Assembly: GCF_964355755.1 (NCBI RefSeq)
Contig: NC_092675.1
Location: forward strand, 2,080,312 to 2,144,311
Origin: Antedon mediterranea
Lineage: Eukaryota; Echinodermata; Crinoidea; Comatulida; Antedonidae
Direction of reading: 5' to 3'
DNA: 64,000 nt
Part shown: positions 5,617-62,542 of the stretch, piece by piece
Numbering within the stretch: position 1 is the stretch's first letter
How the letters are laid out: each line of letters begins with the position of its first letter
Notes under the pieces: generated by a model
Seen by the model: the letters and a program-made list of their open reading frames with translations, nothing else
Databases searched by the model: none
What the model was told of the DNA's origin: nothing
Position numbers and translations under genes: made by a program

Positions 5617-15570
<9,954 letters not shown>

Positions 15571-33655: not shown

Positions 33656-36600
33656 ATGTTTCAGTTTAGAAGTTTGCCAATTTGTATTTATCTATGTATG
33701 TTGTGCTTGTTTTGCCGGATTAAAGCAGGTATGCTTTCATTAAGTTTACTCTGGTTTCATAGTTTAATTCATCTTTTTATCTTTCGATTATCAGGTTGTT
33801 TAAAATGTTTAAAAAACTCTCTCTACCTTTAATTTAGACGCAATATTTAAAAGTAAGATTAAAACGTATTGAACTATTTGGTAAAACAACAATTTCATAA
33901 TGGTAATGATAATGATAATTCTAATGATACGGATACTGATCCTGATTTAATAATACTACTACTAATAATAATAATAATATAGTTATTTCACTCTTCCCGT
34001 AATTGTTTTATATTCAATAGAACCCTCTTGTGATTTCGATGATGATTTCTGTGGATGGGAAAACATTACGGGCCTTAGTTCTCGTAATACACATTGGCAA
34101 CGTTCAAACGGAAAAACAGATGAAAACATTTGGCCAGGTCCAGGTAGGTTTTGTTGTGTTTGATACATTAATATTAGAATATAAACAAAATAACTATTGA
34201 CAGGCGAAACAAAGAAACGTGTTTGGGCCATGAAACGAACGATTACCATATTTGGGCACATCGCACTTTTGTCAAACTAGTTTGATAGTGTAGATAGAGC
34301 TTTACAACATACTTGTTTATTTACAGGTGATGAATATGCTTTTATCAAAAAGATTGGATCTCGGTCGTACTTAAAAGGAGATATAAAGACTACTAAGATA
34401 CCATCGTCTTGGGGTGATTTCTGCGTTAATCTTAACTATTATTTGAGTGATGGCAAGGATACATTAGAAATTTACCATATTTTGAATAATGATCCTGAAT
34501 CGATTGGAGAGTGTAAATACATAAGTACGGAATGGCAGAAATGTGATATCACCTTTACTACGGACAATACTTCAGGAGCTGAGAACTATATAAAATTCCA
34601 TGGAGAAACATATACAAACATTGTAGCTATTAACAACGTTAATATCAGTAAGGGAGCATGCCAAGGTAAGTCGTACTAGGCCTATATTGTAGTGGAAATT
34701 ATTTATTTACCATACAAACAAAACAAATTAACCAATACAATGATGACCATGTTGAAGATGAACGACACAAGTAGAAAGAAATTACACTGACTGTCTCTTA
34801 TAGATTATAGCCATAGAAATTTAGTTCCCTTTTGTATTGCTTGCCACTTACTTTGTTGTTGTTTTTGTGTTTATTATGTTTATACAAAACATAATAAAAA
34901 TAAAAATAATGCCAGTGTTATTACATTTCTGAGACCTACATCAATCTAAAGTATGTATGCTAGACTCTAGAGGGTACGCGAGCGAAGCCCACGACGGATG
35001 GATCACGAATAAAAAAAATAAATACTCATGAGAGTTTGAAAAACACTTATATACAGGGTATATCGTTTTCCCTAAAGTCGTTTTACTTTGATTGAACCGA
35101 ATTTGCGCTTACTTACATTTATAGATTTGTATTTTGGTTACATACTACACTTACAACAATAACAGAAAATAAAAATTTCTTAGCGTATATCTGACCTTAC
35201 ATTTTTTTTTAATGATTTTAGATTCACCTGTTACTACTACAACAGACTTTTCTACTACCTCGTTGATGTCTACTACCTCAGATCAACCTGGTGATACTGT
35301 TTCAGTTGGTAAGTTGTTTACCCATGTATCCTAAAATAGAAAAGATTAAAAAAAAAGTTTGAGGTTTGATTCATATTTTATGAAATAAATAGTATGAGTA
35401 GAACACGTATTATGAGACAACATTATTTTTTTTTTTTATTTTTTTTTTTATTTTATTCAATCGAAACCAACAGCGATAATTACCGCCACTAACAGGTTTT
35501 GATACAAACAAAGCCAGGAGAGTTTAAAGCACCTTGATTGGTCCTGACATTGATCAAGGGCTTCTCTCGTCCAGTGCCCACCTTGACCAGAGGTCTGAGG
35601 CAGATACTAGATGCAGGGGCTGCCATAAGAGTCAGCAGTGCTGATTTCAAATGCCTAACGGGACCCCAGCTCCGTACAGCACCCGCTATTCCCAGATGGT
35701 CTCCCATCCAAGCTCTAACCAGGCCCAACGTTGCTTAACTTATATTCGAAAGGCTATTAATATTATTATTCTACACCTATTATACCTTCATTGTTTCTTT
35801 GTTTATTCACAATTACAATTTCAATTATATTTACAACAACATCACCCAGCATTCAACAGTTCACCACTTGTCAGTTTGGTAACTTATTATTTAAATGCAT
35901 CTACATATACATACAACATGCAAAAAAAAATATGTACAAAAAAGTACAATTGTCGATTGCAGATTTCTTTATAGTACTTTAAGATACGTCGTTCTATATA
36001 GATATATTAATAATACTATTGTTTTTTATTCCACTACAACAGTCTTTCCTACTACCAAGGTGATTTCTACTGCCTCACATTCGCCTGATTATACTACATC
36101 AGTCGGTAAGTTAAGATTTTGTTGAACCATCTATCCTATGATATACTACAATACTCTATACCCACACAGGTATACTTTACATTTTAGTTTCATCGTTCGT
36201 GTTTCGGTAGTAAATTAACAAAAAGATAGGTGGTTCTATAAATGCTTGTAATATTAATGTTGTTGTTGATTCCACTACAGTAACTACAGTCTTTCCTACT
36301 ACCAAGGTGATTTCAACTGCCTCAAAATCGCCTGATTATACTACATCAGTCGGTAAGTTAAGATTTTGTTTAACCATTTATCCTATAATATACGTTCTTA
36401 ATGATATTTCTCCACGTCTATACTTTACATTTCAGGATCTGTTTTTCCTCACAGATTGAAATTTATGTTTTGTATGAATCTCACAGAAGGAATCTATCGG
36501 TACTAACTAAAGAACCTAATTAATTATTGAAATCCAACTGATCTAGTTTTTGTTCTTAAATATGTTTACGGATTATAAATATTCATTCATTCATTTATTT

Positions 36601-39600
36601 ACACAAAGCAAAATTCAAAATATGTTGAAAAAATATGAATCAAATTAATATTTAATGCCTTGTAACTGGAGAAACTCAAATAAACTCAGAGAGCTTTAAG
36701 ACATGTAGGTTCCACCAGGAAAAAAGTTGTTATAATATAATAATAATAATATATATAATATAATAATACAGTTTGGATCAATGTTCATAGACAGAGACAA
36801 CCAGGGTTACCGTAACAGACGGTACATACACAACGCAAGAGACCAACGCAATATTGATTGTATTTAAAAAAAAAAATAAAATTAGAATAATAAAAAAGAA
36901 ATTGTGCTATATTCACACAGGTCCATCAAGCGTAACAATAATAGATACTACCATAGCAACAGATGACCCTACTCCTACAACCGAAGAAGTTTCTGATACC
37001 ACAACCGAAGAAGTTTCTGATACCACAACCGAAGAAGTTTCTGATACCACAACCAAAGAAGTTTCTGATACCACAACCAAAGAAGTTTCTGATACCACAA
37101 CCGAAGAAGTTTCTGATACCACAACCAAACCATTTGAGAATGTTACGGTTACTACTCCATTCTGTAAGTTGGGAACTATCCTACCAAAATGAATACATTA
37201 TGTACTAAAAACTATCAAAGAACAAGATCTACATAATACATATTTCTTGTAATAAAAAAACCTAGATATCAGACATTGTATATATACATTGGTCGTTTAA
37301 CATTATAAGGTTGAGTACTAGAATAAAATGAAAAGTATGTGTATCTCTACAATATAAACTCATTATACACATTCAGATACTACGCCACCTAGCATAACAT
37401 GTCCGGACGACATAAAAACAACGAATACGACACCGTATTGGAAAGTACCAGATGCCAATAAAAAGAATGTAAACTGCACTGAACAACCAAATACAACATA
37501 TGAAATCGGTTCTATTAATGAAGTTACGTGTATGCTTGAAGTCCCTGCTAGTAACACCAATTGCTCTTTTCTAATAATTATTCGTAAGTAAAACAATTAA
37601 TATTATTATAATATTTTTACGGCAAAAATAATTAGTATTCTTCCTTACAAAATGTCTGAGGAATTGGGTAACAGCGATCATGTGATATTGAGTTATTGTT
37701 GCGCTATTTGAATTTATTTTATCTTAAAAATGTATTGTCGCCCAAAAACATTAACATTGAAGATTAATTAAATCAGGCTTTGAATATCCAACAGCCAATT
37801 TGACAATTTTTTGCTTTAAATTACATTTTTTTCAGGTAAATACACTTTTTTTCAATCCAATTTTTGGTCGAAGTGGATAACTAATATGTTACATTAAAAT
37901 GGAAATATTCAACAACAGTTTTTTTTCAGGGGACAGTATATCTTTAACAAATTCTCAGATAATAATTTATTACATATTTTATGAGGTACAATACAGTTTT
38001 ATTTCATTTTATTTAAAAGAGAAATTTAGGTGCGATGTTAATTGCCACTAAATAATTCCTTACTATATAATTATTTACTTAACTTACTGTACTTTCCTTT
38101 TAGAATCTAATCTTTCTGTGAATATAACAAAGATCACAATGGTACGTACAGATTTGTTTTAACAATCCTCGAGAATTGTTCTCACTGGTGCTGTAACACT
38201 CACAATTTTCAATCAATATACAATTTAAAAATCATCAATATTTAAACACACTTAAAAAATAAAAAACGTTACGTCTAGCCTAAAATTACCAGCAACATAT
38301 AGTTGAATTTGAAGTAACAAAAAGTATATTATAATAATATGAAAAATAACAATGGCAAAATAACATTAAGATAAATGGGAATTTGATTTGATATTTTGTT
38401 GTTAAATATATGTTCTTTTCAGAACGTTACTGAAGATAATGTTGAACAAGTCGCTGTCGATCTTAAAGAGATAACAGACAGCACTACCTTGCAATCTGCT
38501 GATATAATCGAAGTGTCGTCAGGGATAGAAAACATTGTTGAACTTAACTCCACGAATGAGAATGTAGGTAGACCTTTCTTAAATATTCGTTGTTTATAAT
38601 TTTTTTTTTCAATTTCCTGATAAATTTGCTATTTAAAAAATGTATTAAAATTTCATAAATAATTATCTATATACAGTAACTAGTATCCAATATAATGAAT
38701 GTATTTTGAAATAACAACATTATTTCTTCATGATGTCAAGAGTGGTGTAGTCGACTACACTGCATACATTTAAAGCAATTAGATAATGTTCTTTTTTTTT
38801 CTTTTTCTGTTTGTACGTGTGTTGATATGGATGGAATTTTCGAAATTAAAGAAATTGAAATTGAATTGAATGTCATTTGTATTCTCTTCAGGTTACTAAA
38901 GCTGTTATTAATATAATCGATAACGTTGTTGAAGCAGTAGAAGAAGATACTGAGGATCTCCCAGTTGAAACTATAGCGTCAATGTTGGCTTCACTTGAAC
39001 AACAAGTTGCCACCGCTTCTAGAGATGGTCAAAATCTTACCGAAAAAGCTGACAATTTTGCTCTGGAAACTAAAACTTTAAATACGCAATTTCTTATGTC
39101 AGATGTTGTGTTCATGGTTGATGGCACAGAAACAATCACGTGTCTTGATGAAAGCTGCGAAGAGTCTGAAAGATCAATTAGGTTGGCTCAAAACATCTTA
39201 CAAAACGGTAGGCCCTTACCAAATACTCGAGTTTAAATATATTATAGGTACATTCGTAAGGAGTCTTGATTCGTTTTTTTTCTAACAAAGTCCCTAAACA
39301 TTACTTTTCAGAAAAGCATATCCATCTTAGCTTCATTGTGTATTTCAACGATGTGCTTTTTCCATCAAAAATAGTGAAGGAAACAACGAATTCGACTTCT
39401 GAAGTTATTCTTGCAGCAACCATTTACAATACTCTTCCTCATACTATGATGTCGGAACCAATGGTCAAACTTGTGTTTGATGTTCCCGAGGTATAACTTT
39501 TAAATTTCAATAAGAAAATATGATTCGCTTTGTTCTGTAAACACGATTAACCTTAGATACTAAAACAATTATCTTTTACATTTTATTTTATTTTAAATGA

Positions 39601-42583
39601 TCAAAAGAAACGGGTGAGTTTTATATACCACAGATAGTCTTGAAATATATAATGCATTTATGGTTTGTAATATTCATAAATTCATTCATAAATTAAAAAG
39701 CAACGTACTGTATTCGGTTCTAAAGATAAACTATCTGTAATCTTAACACGATTTGGAAAATCTTTCCTACGGAAAAAAAAAATTATTAGAAAAGCTTATA
39801 AACCTATAATGTGTTCACAAGTCCAATCAAATGACGTCATGATCAATAAAAATATTACAATAATTGTATCGTCACGATTGTATTGTTCTTACTGATCACG
39901 ACGTCATTTGATTGTATTTTGAAAAAAATATATTTATCGAAGACAGTATTGTTTTTCTAGATTCATCTTTTTTGTTCATTTATCGTTCCTTATCGTCCTA
40001 GTATAAACGGGCCTTAATGCAATTAATAGCTCTAAATATTCACAATTTAGAATATGACAGAGGAAAATTCCACTTGTGTATATTGGGACGAAGCTATCTC
40101 CGAATGGTCAGCGTTTGGATGTAATAAAACCGACGAAAACGAAGATAACATCACGTGCGAATGTTCACATCTAACTAGCTTTTCTGTTCTTATGGTAATT
40201 GTTTTTTTGTTTGTTTTTTCTTTCTCTGGTATTCTCATATTAATGATTAATGACAATATATAATTCTCAAAGTCAAAGCCGACAGTGTTTCAATTATGTA
40301 CTTATTTGATGTTGAAGTTTAAATGGTAAATAAACACTAGTAGGAGGTAGTTAGAGAAAGTTACAGTGGCTTGTTATGTTACAAATTTCTTCTGCAGTAA
40401 TACATGTATTTTTTTACTACATTTTAGTTGCCTAAAAATAGAAGTGAGGAGGTGAATAATGCCTTGGACGTGATATCAACTATTGGTTGCTGGTTATCGA
40501 TATGCTGCTTTACTATTACAATAATTACTCTATTGAGTACAAAGTAAGTTTTACTCTTCTTAAGGTATGACAAATTACAAGTTCAGGGCTGTTGACATTT
40601 AACTTATTGGAAGTACTAACTATTTATTTGTAGATAATTTGAATAACAACACTCTGTAATAATTCATTATTATTATCAAAGACAATTATGTACGTGTATT
40701 TTTTTTAACTTGATACCAATATTATTATTATTATATAATGTCTCATTTTATTATTATAGAAAAATCAGAAATCGTCTGCCCCAAAAGATAATGATCAACT
40801 TATGTATCGCACTTTTGTGCTTGGATCTTGTATTTGTCTTGGGTATAGACAACCATAAAAAAGGAAGCACCTCCTGCATTGCTGTGGCAGCTCTACTACA
40901 TTACTTCTTGTTAGTGTCAATATCTTGGACCTTAGTAGAAGCTATCAGTATGTACTTTTTATTCATCAAGATTTTTGACGCTCCTGGAAGCAAGTTTTTG
41001 TGGACAGCAACAAGTTTAGCCTGGGGTAGGTTGAATTTTTTATTTTGTAATTTAATAATTAAACACTAATCCAGTTAACTCTACGAACGCGGTTATAATG
41101 CTATCAAGTTATTATTTTAAGTTTGATTTTTGTTACAGGAATACCATTGGTAGTGGTTGTGGTTTTGTCAGCGTCAGTTACAAACTTTTATACCAACGAA
41201 TTTTAGTAAGTAGACCTGGACTTGAGAAAAACTTAAACTTTAAAGTTGTCTTTTTATTCCACCGCCCAAACCAAAATGTTGAGAATATCTAGATTACGAC
41301 ATCGAAAAATCATCCTTACAATGATTTTTTCATTTTAACAATTACCGATGCAAGCAGAAATGGATGACAATTTTGCCCCGTATCCAAGAAAGTGCACAAT
41401 AAAAAGTTTGTTTTATTGGTTATTAGTGAACATCATATCCAAAATAGTAAATTGTGTAGGTTATGATTGGATTAATAGATACAAAGAAGATTGTTTGTAA
41501 TGGCGGCCATTCATTTGCATATTAGTTGCCAAATGTATGCATTATAATAAATTGTAAAGATGTATATGTCACTTTCTAAACTAAACATTCTTCTAGGCAT
41601 GTTTATCATGAATCAATGATATACAAAGAAAAAAATTGTATTTTACTAAAACAGCTAATTTGTATAATATATAATGTACGTGACTTTTGGGTCCCATTTT
41701 GGATATGTCATTCAGCACGGTATCATTGACCTATAATAAGCAATAAAAGAAGCTTTTGCAATTTATTTGACTGAAGGGTTTAATTCTGCATGACGGTAGT
41801 TTTCAGAATTATTGAAACTTGTATCAGTTAATAGGACACATTAGGTAGACAGTTGCAAATATTAGCAATATTTCGTTTTTCACATCAACTGCGCGCCTAT
41901 CGAGTGATTCTGCGCATAATCATGTTTCTGAGTATGCGCAGAGTGATGTTTCTATTCGACTGTCACTGCGTAGAGGTCGCTATTGTTTGAAAATTGGGAG
42001 AAGGAATTGAATTTTGGAAGGACTGTAATCAAGTTTCTTTTATTATTTCAGCTGCTATCTTAATGCTTCGATGACGAAATTCTTTATTGGTTTTGTGACC
42101 GCACCCATTGCTGTAATTATTGGTTGCAACTTCATCATGTTTGTAATGGTGATTAGAAAGCTTTTCTTCCAAGCGCCAATCAGTGGTAAGATCGCTACGA
42201 AATCCAGGAATACAAAAAGAAAAAGAGCCGCAAACGCAATGGCCATTTCACTGTTATTGGGTCTCACGTGGATGTTTGGTGTTTTGTATTTCGAAAATAT
42301 TGACCTAAAAGGGGAGATAGTATTTGTTTTTCTTTTTGTTTTATTGAACTCTTTCCAGGGGGTTGCTGTCTTCATTCTGTTTTGTGTACTACGAACGGAA
42401 TGTAGACAAGTATGGCGATCCTGGTTTTCTGCCGTAACAGGTTGTATCTCAAATATTCCGCCTCAACGTAAGTCGATGACAGTGTCTGATAGACGACAAG
42501 GAACTCATGATACGGTAGTGAATGATATTTCACTTTCGGCTATCCCTTCCACAAGTAAAGCTCTGTCTACATTATCAAACTAG
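33656..42583 (+). CDS. Adhesion GPCR with MAM, mucin-like, HYR and GAIN/GPS domains, 998 aa (paralog A)
   Basis: Seven-helix adhesion receptor, self-cleaved at the GPS and activated by its tethered agonist. Exons: 33656-33728, 34021-34143, 34327-34665, 35222-35308, 36043-36105, 36290-36352 (or from 36281), 36921-37163, 37377-37583, 38104-38141, 38423-38563, 38892-39207, 39312-39490, 40051-40194, 40428-40543, 40760-41025, 41139-41205, 42052-42583; 999 codons. Domains: signal peptide (1-24); MAM (25-178; CDFDDDFCGW); Ser/Thr-rich stalk of four phase-1 exons (179-330) with six TEEVSDTT-like repeats; HYR-type module (331-399; PPSITCPDDIK); GAIN (413-672). The GPS has CVYWDEAISEW and [13 protein letters not shown], with predicted cleavage between Leu665 and Thr666. 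TM1 is [22 protein letters not shown]6 has [13 protein letters not shown]7 is [16 protein letters not shown]. The tail is short and its last codons come from a repeat (see findings). G-protein coupling and ligand are unknown. Confidence 0.94.
34244..34305 (-). mobile_element. Copy of the CAAACTAGTTTGA MITE family in GPCR-A intron 2
   Basis: The minus strand reads GTAAAGCTCTATCTACACTA then TCAAACTAGTTTGAC and AAAAGTGCGATGTGCCCAAA. It is antisense to the host gene and between exons, and is the closest match to the repeat that forms the gene's own 3' coding end at 42558. Confidence 0.7.
35424..35739 (-). mobile_element. 5S-rRNA-headed SINE (SINE3 / Deu-SINE-like), about 316 bp
   Basis: On the minus strand, 35739-35673 matches the 3' half of 5S rRNA: GTTAAGCAACGTTGGGCCTG, then GCTTGGATGGGAGACC (box C of the internal promoter) and GGGAATAGCGGGTGCTGTA. 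The first 45-50 bases of 5S are missing. A body of about 180 bp follows, then GATTGAATAAAATAAAA and an A-rich tail at 35424-35459. It lies antisense in a GPCR-A intron (35309-36042). A 5S head plus unrelated body plus A-rich tail is the layout of SINE3-type elements; identity of the body with the Deu domain was not tested. Confidence 0.82.
36979..37128 (+). repeat. 24-bp coding minisatellite, six copies, in GPCR-A
   Basis: Unit ACCGAAGAAGTTTCTGATAC plus CACA encodes TEEVSDTT; two of the copies have Lys for the first Glu. It is part of the Ser/Thr-rich stalk, so copy changes alter stalk length by 8 residues without shifting frame. Confidence 0.95.
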
Positions 42584-42706
42584 TTCGACATAAAAAAAAA
42601 GTGTGATATGCCCAGATATGGTAGAGATATGGCCAAATATGGTAGAGATATGGCCAAATATGGTAGAGATATGGCCAAATATGGTAGAGATATGGCCAAA
42701 TATGGT
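42558..42706 (+). mobile_element. CAAACTAGTTTGA-family repeat plus 21-bp tandem array at the GPCR-A 3' end
   Basis: It begins AAAGCTCTGTCTACATTATC inside the last coding exon, includes the TAG stop (42581-42583), then AAGTGTGATATGCCC and about four to five tandem 21-bp units ATATGGTAGAGATATGGCCAA. The matching copies at 30991 and 34244 define it as a dispersed repeat. Confidence 0.78.
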
Positions 42707-44440: not shown

Positions 44441-44493
44441 AAGATGGTTAAAGGGCGAGAAAACCTTCATTTGGAAAGGTGTCTGACTATGTT

Positions 44494-45099
44494 ATGATAG
44501 ATAGGATAGCTTCTGATTTCGCTTCAATTAAAGGAGATATGTCGAAAGGATTTGACAGGCTAACTAAAAAAATAACTGATTTGGAAGAAGAAAATATAAG
44601 ACTAAAAAACACAAACAAAGTTATAACTACACAACTAGATAAACTAGAAGCTGAAAGTCGTCGTAATAACATCATTATTTATGATATCCCTGAAGATGAT
44701 AGAAATGAAACGTGGCTTGACTGCGAACGAAAGGTAAAGGATTATATAACAACAAATTTAGAAATCGAAGAGGTCGCTTTCGAGAGAGCGCATAGATTGC
44801 ACAGCAAAAGTAACCCACGACCAATCATAGCAAAACTTACTAGCTACAAACAAAAAGATGAAATAATGTCCAAAAATAGAGCACTCAAAAGGAAAATGAC
44901 TGGAAATAAATCAAAAATTAACATGGGTGAAGATTATACTTTCAGAGTCCGTAAAATTAGAAAAGGCCTACAACCAAGGATACAACAAGCAATCAAAAAC
45001 AACGATCGTTTTCGGCTCAGATATGATAAGCTGTTTATAGGCGACGAAGTATATACATTCAACGTAGAAGACAACAAAATCATAAACCTCACAAAATAG
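44494..45099 (+). CDS. LINE ORF1: coiled-coil RNA-binding protein, 201 aa
   Basis: Nucleic-acid chaperone of the LINE particle, resembling the L1 ORF1p fold used by several LINE clades. The first ATG of the frame is 44494 (MIDRIASDFASIKGD). A coiled coil of about 45 residues (LTKKITDLEEENIRLK...) leads into RRNNIIIYDIPE, the start of an RRM, and a basic C-terminal domain (YTFRVRKIRKGLQPRIQQA). It stops at TAG 45097-45099, which is in the same frame as ORF2. An upstream ATG at 44444 is in another frame and runs only a few codons. Confidence 0.85.
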   Translation: MIDRIASDFASIKGDMSKGFDRLTKKITDLEEENIRLKNTNKVITTQLDKLEAESRRNNIIIYDIPEDDRNETWLDCERKVKDYITTNLEIEEVAFERAHRLHSKSNPRPIIAKLTSYKQKDEIMSKNRALKRKMTGNKSKINMGEDYTFRVRKIRKGLQPRIQQAIKNNDRFRLRYDKLFIGDEVYTFNVEDNKIINLTK

Positions 45100-48531: not shown

Positions 48532-48614
48532 TTAATTTTTATTTGTTTGTATTAGGGCCAAAGGCCAATATACTTTGAACCAATAAATTCCCTGAAAAGG
48601 GAAAGAAGAAGATG

Positions 48615-49684
48615 TTACATACTAATAAAAAAAAACGTTCATAACAAAACAATCAGGAAACATAACATTAATATTTAAGCTCCAACTGAACAGACGGATA
48701 TTTGTACGCATCTATGTGTCATGCAATCTTACGGCAATAAATAATAATACGATACTAAATGTCTACATAAAAAAAGAAAATATCCGAGAGATTGACCTAA
48801 CACATACTTACATAATAATTCCATTTTCAGTTCTAAAATTCAATGAATGTTGTGCTGTAAGTTCGTTAAAACATTTCATATTTTTACCAGCACGTATGAA
48901 CTTTCATTCGAATAATAATTCCAATTAATAATTTTCAATTTAAAAGAACGAAGACAATGTTTACGATAAACTATTCTAGGTGTGCTTGTAAACTATTATT
49001 ATTATTCTATTCCATCAATTGGCAGAAAAGCATCTATCATGTAATCATGTAGATTTTAGATTATGATGATGATATGATGATGATAATATGATGATGATAA
49101 TAATGATGATATGATGATGACAATATTATGATGATGATAATGATGATATGATGATAATATGATGATGATTATAAGATGATATGGTATGATATGATAATGA
49201 TATGATGATGATGATGATGACGACGATGCTGATGTGACACTTTGTCATTAAGACTTCAAACGTAGGATAAATTGATGTAATATTTAGTCATCGTCTGAAC
49301 TATACATTGAGTAGTGCCACAAAGTCATTATCGGTATCATTTTGTTATATGTGTTAAGTTATTTATATAAATTGATAATTTATGGTTAATAAGGAACTAA
49401 ATAATATAACATAACACTAATAACCTAGTTGTTACATTTACTGCAAGGTTATCATGGTTTCCCGGAATCTATGTTTAAACGGGAAATAGTTGAAAAACAA
49501 GACAGAAACTGTTACACAAAGATAATAAGAATAAACAACAAAACTCAATAGCCTATTGAACTTATTACTAAGGTAAATGTTACGTGTACGTCAGTGTTCA
49601 GTGGTATTTGCAGTTTGTCGGAGTACAAAACGAATAAGTGATAAAGAAAGACTTTTCAACAAACATCTTTTCAAGAAAATCCTG
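48615..49684. other. Spacer upstream of GPCR-B, with GAT microsatellite
   Basis: No exon supported. It contains an ATGATG-type microsatellite at about 49062-49230, and the promoter and 5' UTR of the gene starting at 49685 must lie in the right part. No clear promoter motif was recognised. Confidence 0.5.
49062..49230 (+). repeat. (GAT/GATA)n microsatellite
   Basis: Imperfect run of GATGAT and GATAAT triplets over about 170 bp, 450 bp before the GPCR-B start codon. Confidence 0.85.
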
Positions 49685-52600
49685 ATGAATTTGTTTGTGT
49701 TGATTTTGTTGTCAATTCCTCATGTAATTATTTCCGTACCTACGGCAGGACGGTGAGTTTTTTTTAGTAATTTTTCTTAAAATATTTCTTTGTTCATGCA
49801 AAGTTAATGTTACAGTACTTAATTTGTTTGGAAAGAATCGATATTTTTTTACACGAAAGACAGCGTTTATGCGTTTATGCGTTTATGCGTCCGATACAAT
49901 GTCTTCTTGAATTTGTTTAAATATTGAGTTTGCGTGCATAGTTTGATGTTCTTTGAATAAATATGAATAACTATTGTCAGATTTGTTACTATAGATTGAG
50001 CTTAAAATAGAAATATTGATGGGTAGCGAATTGTAGTTTGTAACAGCTGCACTTCTTTGCATGATCTCTGCTGCTGAAAAATATATAATGAATTTGAGCA
50101 ACGCATAGCAAACGCATTGACAATGTGAAAACGAATAAATACTGTTACAAATAATTACTATTTTTTAGTCCTCATGTGTGTTCCAGAAAGGTTTCTTCTG
50201 TGCATTCAGTGACAGTTTCTTATTCCGTCTCTTATTCGACTCGATACTATTCATATTGTGGTGTGTTTGGTTGGGGTCGGTGTACAGCATACAGGTAAAC
50301 AAATCTAGTAAACTACAGTAGTTGAGAATAGTAATGAATAATGAATGTCATTATTACTATCAAACGGTCGTTGCCACTGCTGCATGAAGATCATTTCTTT
50401 AAAAATTGCGATTTGAATTTTTTATTAATTTAGGACTAAATACCGTAGGGAATATCGCAAGGAGTACCGCACGACGTACTCAACGAACTATTTTTGCTGT
50501 AGCGGTTGGGCGGAGAGTGGAAATGGGGGTTGTTCAATTCGTAAGTTTACTTTCCTATTATTGTACAAAGACATTAAATTTCTTAGATCTGTGAATAACT
50601 AAACAAAATTATGCATGAGGTCGTGACGTATAGTCAGCAGCCTTGCTTTACGTGCCGATTTTCTATGTTTGTTGTTTTCTTTTTATTAAGTAGGATACTG
50701 TAGGGATTATTTAGTGTGTTACCAGCATCACAGTCGAACTTATTTAACTTAGAAAAAAAAGACCATGGATAGCATACGTCATTGTAGGCTATTTCAACGA
50801 ACTATTATGTGGATTCTGTCTGGGAGCATACTGAGTTCAGGTTCCTAATTGTAATCTACTATTGTTTCGGTTAATTGTTGTTTTTTGTTTTAAACTTAGT
50901 ATAAAGCTGACAGACTTTTGTGTCCATTTTAGAAGACACACATATCATTACAATTGTACTTTCTGATAGCTATTTGTAACCCTTCGTGTAAGAACAAGGG
51001 CCAATGTGTATCACCCAGCAACTGTGATTGTCCAGATACATATACAGGCAGCAGATGCGAAATTGGTAAGTGTCTAAACACAAAAAAAAATAGCATTCAC
51101 AAACTCTTGGTAGATATTTTAGACACCTAACACCTAATAAAACCAATTTTCCTATGCTAGATTTAAAAATAAATCCATTATGTTGTTAACAATTACTGTA
51201 GGTGATATATTTTCGAACAGATAGGCACCAAATAATGGTAAATAATGTCGATTTTAGAGTGAACCAAAAATATTCCCTAATAGATTTTCAATGAAAACGA
51301 CTTAAGCAAAATCCACACTTTATGATTTTTTTTTCATAAACTAGAGTCTGATATTTATGGCATCGGTTTTTTTTTTATTGAAATCTCAAAATAGATTTTA
51401 AACTGAACTAGGCTTAATATCTCAAAAGATGAGGTTACGGCTCTGCGCCGATTTTGTGGTGCCATGCCTAATTTGCATATATCAAATTAATTTAGAATGA
51501 ATAAAGAAATAAATTAAAATAATCAGTGTTTATGAAATTTATTTACAATAATATGATTAAATAAAGACATTTTGTGTAAAACAATAAAAAGCGTAACTTG
51601 TGTGTATGCGTTGAAAGTACGATTTTAAACGAACTTACAGTAACATTATGTATTCACAACAAACGTACCCTCATACAGTAACATTGTATTATAATACAGA
51701 TGTCAATGAGTGTTCGGTGAGGTTTAAGGGAGGCTGCCAACATCGTTGTACAAATCTTCGTGGATCTTTCAGATGTTCATGTTACAATGGATATTCTGGC
51801 ACAAAGTACTGTACAGGTAATAACATACTCTATTACAAATACACTATTTGCAATTGAAACAACTGTTGTTCAATAAACATAATTTTAATACTAGATTTAA
51901 TTCGTCACTATGACGAATTATAGGTTATATGCATTGATTTAAATAAAGATAATTGATTGATTTAAGATATTTTGAATGATTGATTTTCTCAGAATCTTTA
52001 GTTATTTATAATATATGATATCCGGTATCATACTCCGATCAAAGATCCTTCTGCGTATATAATGTCATAAACCACATTTGTGTGTTTATCTAAATTTCAT
52101 TATAAATCATCTGTATAATATGTACACTAAGAAATACAATTAAACAAACAAGCCATACACAACTGACTAAAAATTATGGAAAGATTCCTCCGTGTATTTG
52201 TAACTATACAGTAACCACTTTGGTGCAGATAGATTATTACATACCGCATTGAATTATAATGTTTTACTATGATGACATCTTTAAAGATTTTTAAAAATGA
52301 TGCACTGTCAAACTATATACTTTTAACTTTAATATATGAACTTCTTAAGGAAGAAAGTTAATGTTAAGTTTGTTATTTCGGCCTAAGAAAATGTTATAAT
52401 TTGTTTGATTGTCGAAATTAATTTTTGTAAATTTAATATGCCAAAAATTTAATGATGACTTAATCAACTTTTGTTCTCTTAATTTCATAATAAATCATAC
52501 ATATGATACATACACTTCAAGAAAATGAAATAAAAAATTGGTGTTCCCGAGCATTCTAACGATATATATTAATTTTAAAATTTAGCATATTTTCACCATT

Positions 52601-55600
52601 TTGTTAACTTACACGTGCGTAGCCTGTCACTTTTGACGTGCTCGTATAACGCTGTTTCGCGTTGAAAAGTTAATACAATATGATGATATTGTTAAAGAAA
52701 GGTTATACAACAGTAATCGGACAAAAACATAAATCAAAGAAACTAGTTGCAATTGATACAACTGATGTTTTGTTTCATTATTTGTTTAATTGACATTATT
52801 GCTTACAATAAACATCAATTTATTCCATTGTTAAAGACACTTTTCCTGCAATTGTTTACGTGTTGTGAAATCAATGAACATATAATATTACATTAAACCA
52901 TGTCATCATTCCTGAATAATGTACATTCTGTGAATAATTTAGATAAAAAAGAGAAAAAAATAATGTACCCTCGCTGATCTCGTTGAATGGTATTTACCAG
53001 GCGTGCATATAGCTAGTGTGTAAGCTCCTGATAACAGCGGTAACGCAAGAACATCGTACTCTTGTATAGCTATAGATACAAATACTAACGGTAACATATA
53101 CGTAAAACATAAACAACTTAATGAAGCAGAAGAAGTAATGTTTGTTGGTGTTAAGATTGATAAACATTTAATTTGGAACAGTCATATTAATGATGTTAAA
53201 AACTAGAAAGAAGGCAGGCATTTTATTCAAACTAAGATATGTTGTACCCACAAATATATTAATCTTATTATATAAAATGTTTATTCAACCAAGTATCACT
53301 TATGGCATAGAAGTTTGGGGTAGCACGTATAAAACATATTTACAACCTATTGTTATCATTCAAAAAATGTGTATGCGGTGTATAACTTTTTCTGATTTTA
53401 ATGCTTCGTCGTCTCCGATATTTAAGCAACTTAATATTCTAGATGTTCATAAACTATACGAATTATGTGTACTTAATTTTGTTTTTGATTTATATAATAG
53501 AAACTCTGCACATCAAATCAGTTATTATTTTAGTACAGTTGATCATTTACGAACTACTAGGTTTAAAAAAGGTAATAACTTATCTGACCCAAAAGCCCGT
53601 ACTATGGCTGGTCAATTTAGAATTTCGTTTACTGGCACACAATTTTGGAATAATTTATCACTCGACATAAAAAATAATACATCAAAAATTAATTTCATAA
53701 AAATATAACTGAACTACTGTTATCGAGATACTGATTAATGCTGGCCCACCTCTTTCTTTTTGTCATTATTGTGTTTTCTTACATTATTGTATAATTATAT
53801 TATCAAAATCGTTTGCACTGAACAGTATTATAATTGTTAATCAGGTGTAAACCATTGACTAGCGAAAGCTATTTATTTATACGTTCTGGCTTTGGCGAAT
53901 GAAGAATTACAGCAAAATTGCAAAAGACCCGGTATTTTCGCTAAACAGTTGACGGTTCTTTATTTATTTTTTTTTATAATGATGATTGTGATACAAAATT
54001 TACAAAAACTATGTAATTTATTCTAACATATCACTAATTATATTTCTTTATAAGATATTAATGAGTGTGCTAGTGGTACACACGGATGTGCTCACCGTTG
54101 TATCAACTCAATGGGTAGCTTCAGATGTGATTGTAGACAGGGATGGTCACTTCATTACAACAAGAAAGACTGCACAGGTTAACAGTTTATTTCAATAGTA
54201 TAATGTATAATGATAGTGTGGAAGTTTGTTTGATAGTTAGATTCTGTTCAGATGTCGATAATAATAAATATGGGCATAATTATCTAATTCCAACTTTTGC
54301 TTTGTATTTATAGTATTTGAATTGAATTTTAAATAATCAATTGTTGTCTTATTTAATCCATACGATCAAAAAGCGAATCGTTGTGGTACATTTAAATGTT
54401 GTGATTAAAGGCGTTATTTGTTTTTATCCCAAATGTTTATAAAATCGCTGCCCTGTTTTGGGAGTTTCAAAACTGTTTCACCTGAAATACGCATGTCCAA
54501 TAATAAACATAATTGTTTTATAATACGTTCTGTAACAGATATCAATGAGTGTTCAGTGAATAATGGAGGCTGTCAACATTCTTGTAAAAATCTTCGTGGG
54601 TCTTTCAAATGTTTGTGTTCCGATGGATATTCTGGCACAAAGTACTGTACAGGTAATATATCATGGAAAAAGCCTCATTTGTTTCTATTATTTGATTATT
54701 TGCCGCCCTCTTTAATATTTCTTTTAATGGAAAATCTTGATTTACGGCTATTATAGTTGTTATTATACGGTTATTAAATTATCATATAAGGAACGTTTGA
54801 GGGTATTAGATTTACCAAATTTAATTTATAGACGCCATAGAGTTGACATGATTCAAGTTTTCAAAATTATAAATGGTATGGAGTCTGTCTTAAGTGATTT
54901 TTTTTTAATTAGATGTCGATTTAAGGGCCCGTGGACATAGGTATACATTAAAGTTCCATCGAGAAAAGTTAAACTTGAGAAGGAATTCTTTTCGTTTAGA
55001 GTTGTACTTTTGTGGAATTGTCTTTCTGACTATGTTGTTTAAGCTAGTTCTTTAAATTTGTTTAAAAATAGACTAAATGAGGCTTGGGTAAACCATCCAT
55101 TAAAGTTCACATCGTTTGTATAATATGACATGATAATCGCGAGGGGGCTTATGAGCTTCGCCTCAATTTCCCTCTATTCATACGACTATGAAGGATTACA
55201 AGTAAACAAGTAAGTAAACAAGAAAGTTCCATTTCTGAGAATACAGTTTGAAAAATTGTTCAATCAGTTGGTTTGATTTTAAAAATGTAAAACATCTCTC
55301 CCATACTGGACTGCGAGGTTTTATACTGCCTTAAAACTTTTAGGGTTCTCGTCGACATTAACCTTAACTTTATTCTCAAGTTCCGAGTCATGTATCTTTT
55401 TCTTTATAAGATGTTAATGAATGTGACGTTGGTATAGACAGATGCGACCAAGGTTGTCACAACTCAATCGGTAGCTTCAGCTGCAGTTGTAGACAAGGAT
55501 GGTCACTTGATCAAGATAAGAAAAGCTGCACAGGTATGTCATTTCTGAGAATCCATAGAGTTGAAAACAAATTTCTTAAATCATGTGGTGTGACTTCAAG

Positions 55601-58600
55601 ATCTTACACTACCTAAAACCATCAAGGTCGTGGTGGAAATTAACGATATTTTTGACATTCTTTAAATAGTTGCGATGATCTTTGTCGAACGTTATTATTG
55701 TTTCTGTTCACTTTATTCTTAAGTTCCGAGTCCTATTAATTAGACACAATTCCAACTTATACATCGTCTGATATCTACTTTATAGATGTCAATGAATGTG
55801 ATGCTGGCATAGACGGATGTGAACAACATTGTTCAAATTCCATCGGTAGTTTTAGCTGTTATTGCATGCATGGATGGAAACTTAATCCAGATAATAAAAG
55901 CTGTACAGGTATGAAAATACCATTTCTGAGATCCTTATAAATCAGTTAAAAATCCATCCATTGAGCTATCATTGTTTTAAACATCTGATGGAATGGTTCA
56001 CATTCAGTCGCACTGTCACCCAGTTAAAGAGACTGTAGTCTGGTATGAACGTCTGTCTTCTGCTTAGAACAGTTAGCGATTAGATCACTGCTTGTTTCAT
56101 AAAATAGTTTTAACAATTTCAACCTGCTTTTTTATTTCTATCTACAAATATAAAAGGGTGATATCTTTTCTAATTACAAAAAAAACCACAATTTAATTAC
56201 TTTAAAAATTAATTTAATTAATTCACAGGTCCACCACCAATAATATACGAGAATGGTACCACAGCAACCTATGCCCCTATTATTACAATGATATCTACTA
56301 CATTAGAAGAAGTTACCACTGTTTATGATACCACAACCAATTGCTCTGATTCAAAAAGAATTGAGAGTTGGGATTTTGTTTCCAATACTAGTCGGCATAT
56401 GGTGGTTATATCTAAAACACTCGTATTATTCATAAATATTCTTATTCTAAACTCTATTTTGCTTAGAAAAACTATATTCAAGATTAAATTAATTCAAAAT
56501 TAAACCTGCAATTAATAATATGAGTCATACTATTCACCCAGATTCAACAACATACAGGAATGTTACTGCTGCAACAGACGTACCTAATACCCAGATGATT
56601 TCTACTACATCCGAGGAAGGTACACCAGCTTATGATACCGATACCCCAACCAACTGGCCTGATAATACTCTTCCAGATGGTAACTTCTCGTTTAGCTTAA
56701 CCATGTATCCTATACTAATTGACAATTCTTAATGCTACGGCCCATGCATTCTGTTTTGCTGTTACTGTGCTGGTTGTAGGTTTTTAGATACACAAAATTG
56801 TCGCCATGATTTTTCAAGAATCAAGTTTTGGAAGGTTTAGACAATATACTACTGTGTTTGTTTGTTTGTTTTATGCGACTGTGACTAACTTATATTTACA
56901 TAATTGCTTTAAAAATGATTTTTCTAAAGTTTATCATAATATTCACGCAGATCCAACAACAGCAACATTGATTTCTACTGCATTAGAAAAAGTTACAACT
57001 GACGGTGGTACTGTTTCAGATGGTGAGTTCGAAAACTTTTATTTAAGAAACAAAAATGTAATTAAAACACATCTGCAATACAGATCCATCGACAATTTAC
57101 GAGAATGCTACCACAGCAGTAGATGCACTTACTACTCCAGTGATATCTACTGCATCAGAAGAAGTTACAACTGTTTATGACGGTACTGGTAAGTTGTTAG
57201 TATAGTTAGAATTCATTTTGGCCCTCCAGCTGATTTTGCTGTTTGAAAGATACGTCGTCGGAAAAAAACAAAAAACATTCTTAATATTCATAATTATTAT
57301 AGATGTTATAAATTATCAGATGTATAAATATATGTAAATAGACGTAAGGAACAAAACTGCAATACTATAAATCGTAATATTTACCCAGATCCAGCAAGTG
57401 CAACAGACGTCCCTACTACACAAGTGATTTCAAGTAAGCCCGAAGAAGTTCCAACTACAACCAATTTGCCTGATGTTACTGTTTCAGATGGTAAGCTGGC
57501 GTATTATTTAACCATTATACAGTATCCTATGTTGAGAAAATCAAAAAATTAAAGTAACTATTCGTACACACACACACATTTCCCATTAATACCTCAGCTA
57601 TTTCAATAATGAGTTAATTATCATTAGTTTATTCAACTATGTTCGTGCTTTTGATGACACTTTTGTAAATCTGTAAAAACTGTATCAAATTATATGGAAA
57701 AAGAAGATTCATGCTCATCAGATTCTTAAAATAGGTCTTCTTCAAATAGCTGGAAAAGTTTCTATATTTGGAGAATTTTTAAAATAAAATACTGCTTTGA
57801 AAAATAACTTTTATATATAACTTCTAAATATTTACTCACAGACACATCAAATGTAACAACAAATGACACTACCATAGAAACAGATGCTTCTACCCCCACA
57901 ACGATCTCTACTCCATCCGAAGAAGTTATCAAAACTAAATCATTAAGGAATGCTATAACTATTCCAGTCTGTAAGTTGCGATTTTATTCTGTTTGCTGTG
58001 AAACATTCGGATCTATTGTCATCGTATAAGTACATCTTTGTTTGCTTTAAGCGTTTGTTTCTTTGTACATAAACTACTTAAATACATTTAGATACTACGC
58101 CACGGATAAACATAATATGTCCAGACGACATAAAAACACAGGATCAGTCACCGACTTGGCACGTACCAGAGGGCAATGACGAAAATGTAATCTGTACTGA
58201 ACCATCAAATAGAAAATATGAGATTGGTTCGACTAATAAAGTTAAGTGTATGGTCGGAAACCGTGCTAATAGCAAAGCCGAATGCTCATTTTTTATAATT
58301 ATTCGTAAGTAAACCACTGGTTTTGTTTTTTTAGCATTCCTCTTTGCAAAATGTCACAATCATGGGTAAAAGCGCTCGTTAATGTGAGTTAATTCTGTAC
58401 TATTTGAATTATGTTATCAGGGATCACGAGTGAAATTATTGTCATTTCACTCTTTCCTAGTGATGTTATAAATCGCTTACGATTATTTTGTGTCTATCTT
58501 TACTTTCCTTTTAGAATCTGATCTTACTTTGAAGATAACTGAAATCACAATGGTATGATTTCTCTTTTCTATAACTTGCACTTGAAATCAATTTTCTAAT

Positions 58601-61600
58601 TAATACACATGTAAATTCATGTACATTTACCACCAGATTCTTGGTACTGTATCTAGATATTATACAATTGAAAAAAGGCAGAAGTTCTAAAAATACAAAA
58701 TACAGATTTATAAATTATAATAAAACACAAAAACAAAGCCAAATAGCATTAAAAAGGAATAGGAATTTTACTAATGCTTGTTGCTCTTCACCAGAATGTT
58801 ACTGAAGAAAATGTTGAACAAGTCACTGGCGTTCTTAAAGAAATAACAGATAATAGTACTGCTTTACAGCCTGCTGATATAATAGAAGTGTCGTCTGGGT
58901 TAGAAGGCATTGTTGGACTTAACTCAACAAATGAGAATGTAGGTTACAATTATAACGTTGATGACCCTTTTTTATAGGCAACTTGTCGACTTATTGTTAG
59001 GCCTACTCAATAATAAAGTCTTTATAATTCAATCAATGTATTGGGATGTTGAAGAAGAAGTTTTGATATTACATATTGTGGACATTATAACAATACCCTT
59101 CTATACCATTAGTAAGATGAACTCGTCGTTCAAAGTTGCAGGCGCAAAAATATGGAATAACCTACCAACTGAAATTAAATATTCCTCAACAATTGCTTCA
59201 TTCAAAGCTAGGTATCGATCTCATTTTTGTACACAAATCTAAACATTTGTCCCTGATTTTGTTATTATTCAACACAGGAACACAATGCAAAACAGGTTTT
59301 CTTTTACCTGTATAAAGATGTTGTTAAATAAATAAAAAATTAATAATGGAAAGTAATGATCACGAGTATACTGTACTACAGCTAATGTATTCTCTTTAGG
59401 TTACTAAAGCTGTGATTAATACAATTGATAATGTTTTGGAAGCAGTAGAAAATACTGAGGATCTCCCAGTTGAAACTATAGCGTCATTGTTAGCGTCACT
59501 TGAACATCAAATTGCCACCGCTTCTAGAGATGGTCAGAATCTTACTGAAAGAACTGACAATTTTGCTCTGGAAACTAAAAGCATAAATACAAAATCACTC
59601 AAGTCAGATGTTGTTTTGGTAGTAAATGATGCAGAAACAACCACGTGTCTTGATAAGGGCTGTGTAAAGGAGTCCGACAGATCAATTAGGTTGCCAAAGA
59701 AGATCTTACAAAACGGTATAAACTTTAGTTTAGATATACTATTGAAGTTTTTGTTTCTGACTGGGCGTTGGCCATCACGTTGTTCAACAATTCTATATTT
59801 CTTGCACTCCAACATCTCCACCTTCTGATATTTTACTGTTACTTGTAAAGCTGCTCACTCACAGCGCCCTTCTACCTCTTTTACTCTCTTCCCATCTTTC
59901 CAATTAAGTTTCAGTTCTTGATGCTCTCTTTTCTACTAACATGCCCAAGTAACTACTTGGCTCGTATATTACTGAACTGTTTCCTGTTGAATGCTCCTCT
60001 ATTTAACTTACTGCCATATTGTTAACGTTGTATGTTCATTATCTTCATCACTACCGTATGTGTATGTATCTATGATTTATATGACAATTATCAAAATGTC
60101 TTCATTTTGTTGGTAAAAGCGTTAGAAATATTGAAATAGACTTTTTGTAATACAATGCGTACAATAATAATGTGTCATTAATAAAACGTATTCATAAGAA
60201 AGTAAGCTTGTATGTCATCATTCATTATTGTTATTTGTAACAACGTTTTTTTCAGAATCACAGACAAATCTTAGCTTCATTGTGTATTTCAACGATGTAC
60301 TATTTCCATCAAAAATGGTAAAGGAAACTAAGACTTCGACCTCTGACGTAATTCTTGCAGCAACCATTTACAATACTCTTCCTCCTCATACTATGATGTC
60401 GGAAACAATGGTCGAACTTGTTTTTGATATTCCAGAGGTATAACTACATATTTTTTTATTTCACTAAAATTGACCAAGAGGTCCGTTTTAGACGATATAC
60501 AATATCGTTAACAATACAAAAAAAAATTACTCTAGTAAACAGGCTTCAAAGTTCAAAAGTTCTGATTAATGAATATCCATGTATTGATTAAGACAATTAA
60601 TAGAATCTAACTATTCATACTTTAGGGTTTGACGGCGGGGAATTCAACTTGTGTATTTTGGAACGAAACAATTTCTGAATGGTCAGATTTTGGCTGCAAG
60701 AAGATGATAGAAGAAACAAATAAAAATCACATCACATGTGAATGTTCGCATCTAACTAGCTTTTCTGTTCTTATGGTATTAGTTCGTTTCTTTGTTTATT
60801 GTTATGATTTTGGCATACCATCAAAAGGTATCGCTTATTTTGTCATCATTGTCATAAGGGGTTTCCGTCTTCCTAATTTATTCATATTTTATCCAAGCTG
60901 CTTTCATCTTTACACATTCTTAGTAGTAGTATTATTTTTCTTTCGACTGTATATTTAATTTTTTATACGAAGATGATTATTATACTAGAGGACATATATA
61001 AACATTTAAAAAAATTAGAAGCAAGCAATACATATTTGTTTTTATTACATTCTAGTTGCCTACAAAGATAGGTACTAAGAAGTCGAAGAAAGCATTGGAC
61101 GCGATATCAACCATTGGTTGCTGGTTATCGATATGCTGCTTTACTATCACAATAATTACTCTATTGAGTTCAAAGTAAGTGTTCTTCCTCAGGTCTAAAA
61201 AGATCTCAAATTCATTAATAGTTATTTAAAATGGAAAACCATCAAGCATATATGTCTCACTTTCTATTGTAGAAAACTCAGAAATCGTCTGCCTCAAAAG
61301 ATAATGATCAACTTATGTGTCGCACTTTTGTGCTTGGATCTTGTATTTGTCTTGGGTATAGACAACCATCAAACAGGAAACACCTCCTGCATTGCTATGG
61401 CAGCTCTACTACATTACTTCTTGTTAGTGTCGATATCCTGGACCTTGTTAGAAGCCATCAGTATGTATTTTTTAATCATCAAAATTTTCAACGCTCCCGG
61501 AAGTAAGTTTTGGTGGACAGCAGCAAGTTTAGCCTGGGGTAGGTCATATTTTGTTTGTTTAAAATCACACAGACTTTGTATCCAGTCAACTACAATCTCG

Positions 61601-62542
61601 GAGTAATTACATCAATCCAATTATAATATAATATTATTACAGTAAATACGTTTGTGTTTTGTTACAGGAACACCGTTGATATTGGTTGTTGCTTTGTCAG
61701 TGTCATTTACAGACTTTTATACCAGCAAAGATCAGTAAGTATATAGCTTGAACTACAGGAACATGTCAACAACATTACAATTTGATAGGAAAAACTTAGG
61801 TCTAGGAAAAATTGACCGTCCAAACTCAGAATATCTAAAATGCCTAATTTGTGACAATATTACGATTATAAGTCCTGATGTTTTTTTTAGTTTCATCGAG
61901 CAGTGAACAAATGGATGCTTAGTATTTGTTGGTATAATATATAGTATGTAATACTTAGAACCATCTTCCAATGAAATGACTGTAGTCAAAGTTGGTTTTT
62001 TTTTCAGCTGCTACATTGACGCTTCGATGACGAATTTCTTCATTATATTCGTAATTGCACCTATTGCTGTAATAATTGGCTGCAACTTCATCATTTTTGT
62101 AATGGTGATTAGAAAGCTGTTCTTTCATGTGCCAATCAGTGGTAAGATCGCTACGAAATCCAGGAATACGAAAAGAAAAAGAACTGCAAACGCTATATCC
62201 ATTTCACTTTTGTTAGGCCTCACGTGGATGTTTGGGTTTTTGCAATTTGAATATTTAGGCCTAGGCCTAAAAGGGATAGAGATAGTATTTGTTTTTCTTT
62301 TTGTTTTATTGAACTCTTTCCAAGGGGTTGCTGTCTTCATTTTGTTTTGTGCACTACAAACTGAATGCAGACATGTATGGCGATCCTGGTTTACTGTCGT
62401 AACACGTTGTATCTCAAATATTCCGCCTCAACGAGATCATGGGTCGATAACAGTATCTGGGTCACGCACAGGAACTGATACAGCGGCAGTAAATGATATC
62501 TCACTTACGGCCATCCCCTCCACTAGTAAAAGTGTTATTTAA
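49685..62542 (+). CDS. Adhesion GPCR with EMI, EGF, mucin-like, HYR and GAIN/GPS domains, about 1190 aa (paralog B)
   Basis: Tandem paralog of the receptor at 33656. Exons: 49685-49752, 50169-50294, 50434-50540, 50970-51065, 51700-51816, 54055-54177, 54539-54652, 55411-55533, 55786-55908, (56229-about 56363 doubtful), 56542-56679, 56951-57022, 57084-57188, 57389-57490, 57842-57970, 58092-58304, 58515-58552, 58795-58938, 59400-59715, 60256-60437, 60626-60775, 61056-61174, 61273-61538, 61668-61734, 62008-62542. Without the doubtful exon these sum to 1191 codons. Order: signal peptide ([17 protein letters not shown]); EMI domain over two exons ([32 protein letters not shown]); one EGF ([11 protein letters not shown]); five calcium-binding EGFs, each starting D-[VI]-N-E-C with the C-x-N-x4-F-x-C-x-C hydroxylation pattern; Ser/Thr stalk of short phase-1 exons; HYR module (ICPDDIKT); [20 protein letters not shown] (cut before Thr); seven TM helices ending [19 protein letters not shown] to C terminus closely matches paralog A. 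Poly(A) signal at 62615-62620. Confidence 0.93.
52612..52670. repeat. Fragment of the CGAC-rich dispersed repeat interior
   Basis: TTACACGTGCGTAGCCTGTC followed by ACTTTTGACGTGCTCGTATA matches 24500-24545 almost exactly. Located in GPCR-B intron 51817-54054. Confidence 0.75.
53092..53708 (+). pseudogene. Non-LTR retrotransposon RT C-terminal remnant, frameshifted
   Basis: An upstream frame reads [20 protein letters not shown] and hits a stop; a second frame from 53190 continues [20 protein letters not shown], then [18 protein letters not shown] and [20 protein letters not shown] to 53708. This is the post-RT C-terminal region shared by CR1/Jockey/Rex-like LINEs. The frame break and lack of 5' parts make it dead. 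It is in a GPCR-B intron. Confidence 0.8.
54748..55215 (+). pseudogene. LINE 3' remnant with ACAAG-rich tail
   Basis: Frame from 54748: [20 protein letters not shown], then [20 protein letters not shown]; it breaks, then RGHR-like and [13 protein letters not shown] fragments follow in other frames to about 55115. It ends in GTAAACAAGTAAGTAAACAAG. This is the typical end of Rex/CR1-like RT ORFs. Antiquity is shown by several frameshifts. Located in GPCR-B intron 54653-55410. Confidence 0.75.
56229..56363 (+). pseudogene. Probable decayed Ser/Thr cassette exon of GPCR-B
   Basis: An acceptor TTCACAG and a phase-1 reading frame ([18 protein letters not shown]...LEEVTTVYD) resemble the cassette at 57084-57188. 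No GT donor lies where the reading frame needs one; ATTGAGAGTTGGGATTTTG at 56361-56379 looks like a mutated form of the GTAAGTTGGG-type intron start seen after sister exons. Without splicing the frame reaches TAA at 56501-56503. All neighbours are phase 1 on both sides, so skipping keeps the frame. Confidence 0.55.
59045..59335 (+). pseudogene. LINE 3'-terminal fragment in GPCR-B intron
   Basis: Frame ending at 59242 with [20 protein letters not shown] and [12 protein letters not shown], the usual last residues of CR1/Rex-type RT ORFs, then a short 3' UTR with AACACAGGAACACAATGCAA and a TAAATAAATAAAAAATTAA end. It is severely 5' truncated, as is common for retroposed LINE copies. Confidence 0.72.

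Follow-up and report, generated by a model that had tools for sequence, protein, structure and literature searches.

Known Chimeric and Domain-Shuffled Receptors

Domain-shuffled adhesion G-protein-coupled receptors (GPCRs) are already known, and so is the chimera EMR2 (ADGRE2), a mammalian EGF-TM7 receptor with CD97 and EMR3 as relatives, which is maintained by gene conversion (Kwakkenbos 2006, as cited in PMC2077338 and PMC2720389). In this work, two neighbouring adhesion GPCR genes of the crinoid Antedon mediterranea, named A and B, are compared with such systems. They are located in a window of 64,000 nucleotides, that is, the whole stretch of DNA analysed (C6:2080312-2144311, contig NC_092675.1; other contigs are named in the same way). 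All comparisons are confined to this one genome assembly (354 Mb, 18 contigs, ~32% G+C) and to sequence data.

EMR2/CD97/EMR3 is the closest precedent. As in the cluster described in the sources cited above, the genes are neighbouring adhesion GPCR genes, and within one receptor the nearest relatives of the ectodomain are not those of the seven-transmembrane (7TM) part; conversion also keeps a region alike, which here holds for a second tandem pair, C5_1 and C5_2 on contig C5, and was not found for A and B. However, in those accounts the parts of EMR2 come from one EGF-TM7 cluster and are of EGF type throughout, whereas the fronts of A and B are unrelated domain families, and one of them, the MAM domain of A, is akin to a distant clade on other chromosomes. 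In amphioxus, the adhesion GPCR expansion likewise brought many new ectodomain types, Lectin C-type and SRCR included, for which domain shuffling has been proposed; the passages of that account drawn on here report no near-identical 7TM halves with unrelated fronts and describe no exon-level breakpoints (PMC2246102). Sponge adhesion GPCRs also join SRCR modules to GPS/7TM, and the main text of the report is without mention of MAM or HYR (PMC4302439). In a survey of choanoflagellates and metazoans, duplication and domain shuffling were proposed as the driver, but the 7TM clades tend to retain their N-terminal architecture (PMC12716839), while in the present genome each of four closely related 7TMs has a front of its own. 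The conversion between TLR1 and TLR6 resembles the C5 pair in that one region of the tandem receptors is homogenised while the recognition region diverges, but TLR1 and TLR6 retain one domain architecture (PMC2077338). Within the open-access literature, outside which most subscription papers lie, no adhesion GPCR with HYR or MAM was found described. What is distinct here is that, in each of two separate tandem pairs, the shared halves are closely similar while the fronts are unrelated or rearranged.

The Shared Half and the Stalk of A and B

The gene models of A and B were made from open frames and GT-AG borders, with the signal peptides assigned by eye (Table 1); the genes are adjacent and in the same orientation. 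A has the order signal-MAM-Ser/Thr stalk-HYR-like-GAIN/GPS-7TM, and B has the order signal-EMI-EGF-five calcium-binding EGF (cbEGF)-stalk-HYR-like-GAIN/GPS-7TM. Domain search found MAM, GPS and 7tm_2 in A, and EMI, five EGF_CA, GPS and 7tm_2 in B, in agreement with the domains named in an earlier reading of the letters alone (the sequence-only reading). The cbEGF repeats inside B resemble each other (74% between units 1 and 3), and no good GT donor was seen near 56345 for the 3′ border of B stalk exon 10. A reverse-transcriptase-like fragment lies inside a B intron (53172-53705).

When exons 8-17 of A are aligned with exons 16-25 of B, the ten exons from the HYR-like exon to the stop have the same order and the same phases (1-1, 1-0, 0-0, 0-1, 1-0, 0-0, 0-2, 2-1, 1-2 and 2-stop). 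The four equal lengths remarked on in the sequence-only reading (38, 316, 266 and 67 bp) are confirmed, and the other lengths differ by multiples of 3 (207/213, 141/144, 179/182, 144/150, 116/119 and 532/535). BLASTP gave 65% identity across 859 positions, stalk included; the per-exon identity of the shared half is 52-88% with a length-weighted mean of ~76%, far above chance, the exon of transmembrane helices (TM) 2-4 reaching 88%, and the divergence is Ka 0.13 and Ks 0.34. That reading had placed the start of homology at the HYR exon. The two genes do share everything from HYR on, but their homology extends 5′ into the stalk exons: A7 pairs with B15 (z ~16, acceptor included), and A4-A6 are similar to B11/B14. 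On the 5′ side of the stalk there is no A/B match, no MAM remnant near B and no EMI/EGF remnant near A. The earlier claim that A and B are tandem paralogues, alike in the transduction half but not in their N-termini, is thus supported, and the C5 pair shows this pattern again at higher resolution.

The most probable explanation is that A and B are tandem duplicates of one HYR-GAIN-7TM receptor, with 5′ module exchange at the Ser/Thr stalk. Alternatively, a common ancestor may have had MAM and EMI-EGF together, A and B each losing one set. Phase-1 symmetric exons are easily lost, and composite ectodomains do exist, such as that of C5_1 with its four module types; yet neither gene retains a decayed remnant of lost modules, the next relatives C5_1 and C5_2 have neither MAM nor EMI in the stretches examined, and the signal exon lies directly before a different module in A and in B, which is not simply given by loss, so that such an origin is quite improbable.

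As for their class, A and B have the features of adhesion GPCRs (class B2), namely a secretin/adhesion 7TM, a GPS, and a modular N-terminal part with a signal-like peptide. The predicted cleavage motif HL|TSFSVLM is present in both, with GPS directly before the 7TM. The Pfam GAIN model scores 18.3 and 15.8 bits, against a cut-off of 21.7 bits, and the alignment with ADGRL3 spans part of the GAIN region. The best PDB matches are the adhesion GPCRs L3, G2 and G6 with near-equal scores, hence none of the nine vertebrate ADGR subfamilies (A-G, L, V) is indicated. As to the EGF-TM7 (ADGRE) receptors, gene B has EGF repeats and an additional EMI at the N terminus, and E5 is not its best PDB match.

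Origin of the Fronts

The 7TM tree contains 20 sequences. A, B and the C5 pair form one clade (100/99). This clade is nested with receptors of C3 and C4, and the C9, C8 and C1 receptors downstream of MAM arrays lie far away from it. Within the clade of A, B and C5, support for A and B as sisters is only moderate (91/84), and the approximately unbiased (AU) test does not reject A with C5 (p 0.19). For the 7TM part, AU tests rejected the grouping of A with the receptors of the MAM arrays (p 4e-4), that of A with the MAM-bearing C3 receptor (p 2e-82), and that of B with the C4 receptor which has EMI-like exons on its 5′ side (p 5e-6). The MAM of A, in turn, is nearest to the MAM arrays on C9, C8 and C1 at 50-54% identity and groups with them at 99-100% support, its placement with the MAM of the C3 receptor being rejected (p 0.005). 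Since the 7TM of A goes with B and C5 and its MAM with the C9/C8/C1 arrays, ectodomain and 7TM of A have different nearest relatives; that is to say, the conflict of trees for which the sequence-only reading had suggested looking was found for A, within this genome. The gene head-to-head with A on the minus strand, which combines MAM and ZP-N, was also considered as the source of the MAM of A; it was rejected (AU p 0.007) and is absent from the MAM search matches. In the C3:377k paralogue, a YWTD-type propeller had been suspected by eye and was dropped, having no Pfam support.

For the front of B, exons like its EMI, EGF and cbEGF co-occur at C6:22.90, C9:22.12, C10:24.24, C10:4.11-4.18, C1:24.09 and C5:20.72-20.80 Mb, and among the matches listed, from which weak ones are excluded, no 7tm_2 lies near these loci. 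Because the EMI is split over two exons, a genome-wide search with the Pfam EMI profile is uninformative. The CTLD (C-type lectin domain) of C5_1 has its closest counterparts in CTLD exons at C9:21.67-21.69, C8:19.19 and C5:20.06 Mb (58-63%), and no 7TM lies near such loci among the matches listed. The donors of the front of B and of the CTLD of C5_1 may be ordinary secreted-protein genes.

The EMI-EGF cassettes listed without a 7TM would also suit the idea that the joined models are wrong, the MAM or EMI/EGF exons being genes in their own right that are located 5′ of the 7TM genes. But in A a strong phase-1 donor (AAG|GTAAGT) follows the MAM exon, the stalk exons after it are all phase 1-1 with a frame that stays open into HYR, no further signal-like start was seen in the stretch from the front to HYR, and MAM, HYR, GPS and 7TM recur in that order on one strand at C8:18615-18648k and C1:7225-7245k (judged from match positions, not from spliced gene models); this idea is very improbable. 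The same two loci show that the combination MAM+HYR+GPS+7TM, which the sequence-only reading did not recognise as a standard subfamily, is not unique to A.

The MAM and all stalk exons of A are phase 1-1, so the MAM is movable as a symmetric cassette. The proposed phase-1 modularity holds for the MAM, EGF and stalk exons, but it leaves the EMI part unexplained, the introns 5′ of and within the EMI of B being phase 2. Given the phase-2 intron 5′ of the EMI, the 5′ end of B probably came with its own signal exon.

The Tandem Pair on C5

The genome was searched for shared-half relatives with the HYR-to-tail protein of A as query; the nearest matches are B, then two C5 genes, and then an array at C3:33.33-33.46 Mb and genes on C3, C4, C1 and C8. 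C5_1 and C5_2 are in tandem on the minus strand, with a shared-half Ks of 0.046, and both end in KSVI or KTVI, class I PDZ-ligand-like (C5:2619281 and 2663769). The front of C5_1 is U-U-SRCR-CTLD and that of C5_2 is HYR-HYR-U-U. U is an extracellular domain of ~165 amino acids with 14 matches genome-wide and no credible Pfam or PDB match (sites at C5:2676150-2676638 and 2650456-2650953; C7:5.1 and 11.77 Mb; C5:25.4 Mb; C8:16.0 Mb).

Read 5′ from HYR, the homology between C5_1 and C5_2 ends at a stalk-exon acceptor. Going further 5′, C5_2 has U-stalk-U-stalk-HYR-HYR, one of the two upstream HYR units being without Pfam support, and C5_1 has CTLD (8e-15), a decayed HYR exon copy, SRCR (5e-33), U, stalk and a diverged U. 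Since the U and stalk blocks are ~90% identical between the two genes, the whole unit was duplicated, and afterwards either one copy gained SRCR+CTLD or the other copy lost it. In this pair, modules were thus added to an ectodomain that the two genes share in part, or were deleted from it, so that wholesale replacement is not the sole mode. Therefore, of the earlier proposal of duplication followed by ectodomain replacement, the general course is supported by the C5 pair and by the tree conflict of A, but not replacement as the only process. In C5_1, two copies of a 6.7-kb sequence in tandem, 99.985% identical and carrying CTLD and decayed HYR exon copies (C5:2645704-2638994 and 2638227-2631517), may be a very recent duplication or an assembly error.

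From the 3′ part of GAIN to TM4, introns included, C5:2622709-2620912 has ~2 differences from C5_2 in 1.8 kb, while the flanks differ by 6-9%, and an identical run this long was seen in 0/5000 permutations. Such a tract in the signalling core is the signature of gene conversion or else of a double exchange that took place very recently. With conversion thus active in the family, and EMR2 being a known adhesion GPCR chimera maintained by it (PMC2077338), it may be asked whether A and B were receptors with already different ectodomains that became neighbours, an old conversion then making their 3′ halves alike, in which case the part that changed would be the shared half rather than the ectodomain. 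However, no recent conversion tract was found between them: no exon has near-zero Ks and the introns are mostly at background identity, so any A/B conversion must be old. Homology runs through the stalk and all ten 3′ exons from one end to the other, fitting duplication, and the C5 blocks outside the tract are as alike as noted above. We regard this origin as rather unlikely.

Proposed Origin and Function

The GAIN domain of an adhesion GPCR cleaves the receptor at HL|T, and the fragments remain together until loss or shift of the N-terminal one exposes a tethered agonist. According to the preferred reading, duplication with module exchange, one HYR-GAIN-7TM receptor gene would have been duplicated in tandem, and during or after this the 5′ ends of A and B would have diverged by exchange of exon modules at the Ser/Thr stalk. 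A would have acquired a two-exon MAM cassette related to the MAM arrays of the distant receptor clade, and B the 5′ end (signal, EMI, EGF, cbEGF) of an EMI-EGF gene family. Each receptor would be cleaved at HL|TS within GAIN, binding or pull on the MAM or EMI/EGF front would expose the tethered agonist TSFSVLM, and the similar 7TMs would then yield a similar G-protein response. The stalk may act as an O-glycosylated spacer. In other words, the fronts would decide the partner and the 7TM the response, the symmetric stalk exons being the joint.

Several points weigh against this reading. A and B would be explained almost as well if the 3′ half had undergone an old conversion or if modules of a composite ancestor had been lost. 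When both outgroup MAMs are held with A, the three-way MAM test gives no rejection (p 0.056). The HYR exons of A and B score 19.8 and 15.6 bits, below the Pfam cut-off of 21.7 bits (PF02494); their counterparts in the C5 paralogues are 57-60% identical to them, and that of C5_1 passes with 41.7 bits, so the HYR of the sequence-only reading is upheld as a homologue of a passing HYR and not by the profile itself, and the exons are called HYR-like on homology alone. The C-terminal tails also differ. A ends in TLSN, without a class I PDZ-like ending, while B ends in KSVI (class I PDZ-ligand-like) and the C5 pair in similar endings; hence the scaffolding of A and B may differ.

A wider, tentative and rather doubtful idea is a receptor-diversifying system resembling immune or self-recognition systems, in which a HYR-GAIN-7TM cassette, sometimes homogenised by conversion, would be repeatedly joined through symmetric stalk exons to new fronts. 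These new fronts would perhaps be MAM, EMI/EGF, SRCR with C-type lectin, and the U domain family.

Features of the Window and Other Observations

Table 1. Positions of A, B and neighbouring features in the window
Feature	Position	Strand	Remarks
Gene A	33656-42583	+	17 exons, 998 amino acids
A exon 1	33656-33728	+	Start codon, signal-like peptide; 3′ end phase 1
A MAM	34021-34143, 34327-34665	+	Each phase 1-1; Pfam 1.2e-7
A Ser/Thr stalk	35222-35308, 36043-36105, 36290-36352, 36921-37163	+	All phase 1-1
A HYR-like exon	37377-37583	+	Below Pfam cut-off; 60% identity to passing C5 HYR
A GAIN/GPS	38104-38141, 38423-38563, 38892-39207, 39312-39490, 40051-40194	+	Pfam GPS 1.6e-12
A 7TM and tail	40428-40543, 40760-41025, 41139-41205, 42052-42583	+	Pfam 7tm_2 6e-41
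Gene B	49685-62542	+	25 exons, about 1,230 amino acids
B exon 1	49685-49752	+	Start codon, signal-like peptide; 3′ end phase 2
B EMI	50169-50294, 50434-50540	+	Phase 2-2 and 2-1; Pfam 8.5e-10
B EGF exon	50970-51065	+	Phase 1-1
B five cbEGF exons	51700-51816, 54055-54177, 54539-54652, 55411-55533, 55786-55908	+	Phase 1-1; five EGF_CA 8e-35
B Ser/Thr stalk	From 56229; 56542-56679, 56951-57022, 57084-57188, 57389-57490, 57842-57970	+	
B HYR-like exon	58092-58304	+	Below Pfam cut-off; homologous to A and C5
B GAIN/GPS	58515-58552, 58795-58938, 59400-59715, 60256-60437, 60626-60775	+	Pfam GPS 1.7e-12; GPS exon 3′ end at 60775
B 7TM and tail	61056-61174, 61273-61538, 61668-61734, 62008-62542	+	Pfam 7tm_2 3.5e-38
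LINE between A and B, outside both	44452-45096 (ORF1-like), 45100-48528 (ORF2-like)	+	By eye
Neighbour, MAM exons	Within 29065-28149	-	Pfam 3e-37
Neighbour, ZP-N exons	26117-25192	-	Pfam 1e-16

The last stalk exon of A contains a 24-bp minisatellite (36925-37153) encoding TTEEVSDT/TTKEVSDT repeats, while the C5 stalk has a different repeat, TTTVRP. The frames of the long interspersed nuclear element (LINE) between A and B were identified by eye from open reading frames (ORFs), and a second long open LINE ORF2-like frame is present at 17754-21440. The neighbour head-to-head with A spans 29065-25192. Elsewhere in the window, 262 bp occur twice head-to-tail at 31874-32397 (99% identical), and a 91-bp tandem copy (15386-15567, 97% identical) lies across an intron-exon border of an apparent GH31 alpha-glucosidase gene (5605-15208). 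In the rest of the genome, at least 11 near-identical GPS motifs are in tandem ~3-6 kb apart at C7:2285068-2320980, and the HYR model gave 1417 first-look candidates, many in C1 arrays near adhesion GPCRs.

Significance

The close relatives A, B, C5_1 and C5_2, whose 7TM exons have an identity of ~65% or more, bear four different fronts and form a domain-swap set provided by nature. Should they signal alike, they would directly show that sensor and transduction are separable, and also which of the modules are able to activate one and the same tethered agonist. In the C5 pair, where the silent divergence of the shared half is ~5%, the process is captured at a recent stage. In summary, this genome seems to alter what its receptors sense by exchange of their front ends.

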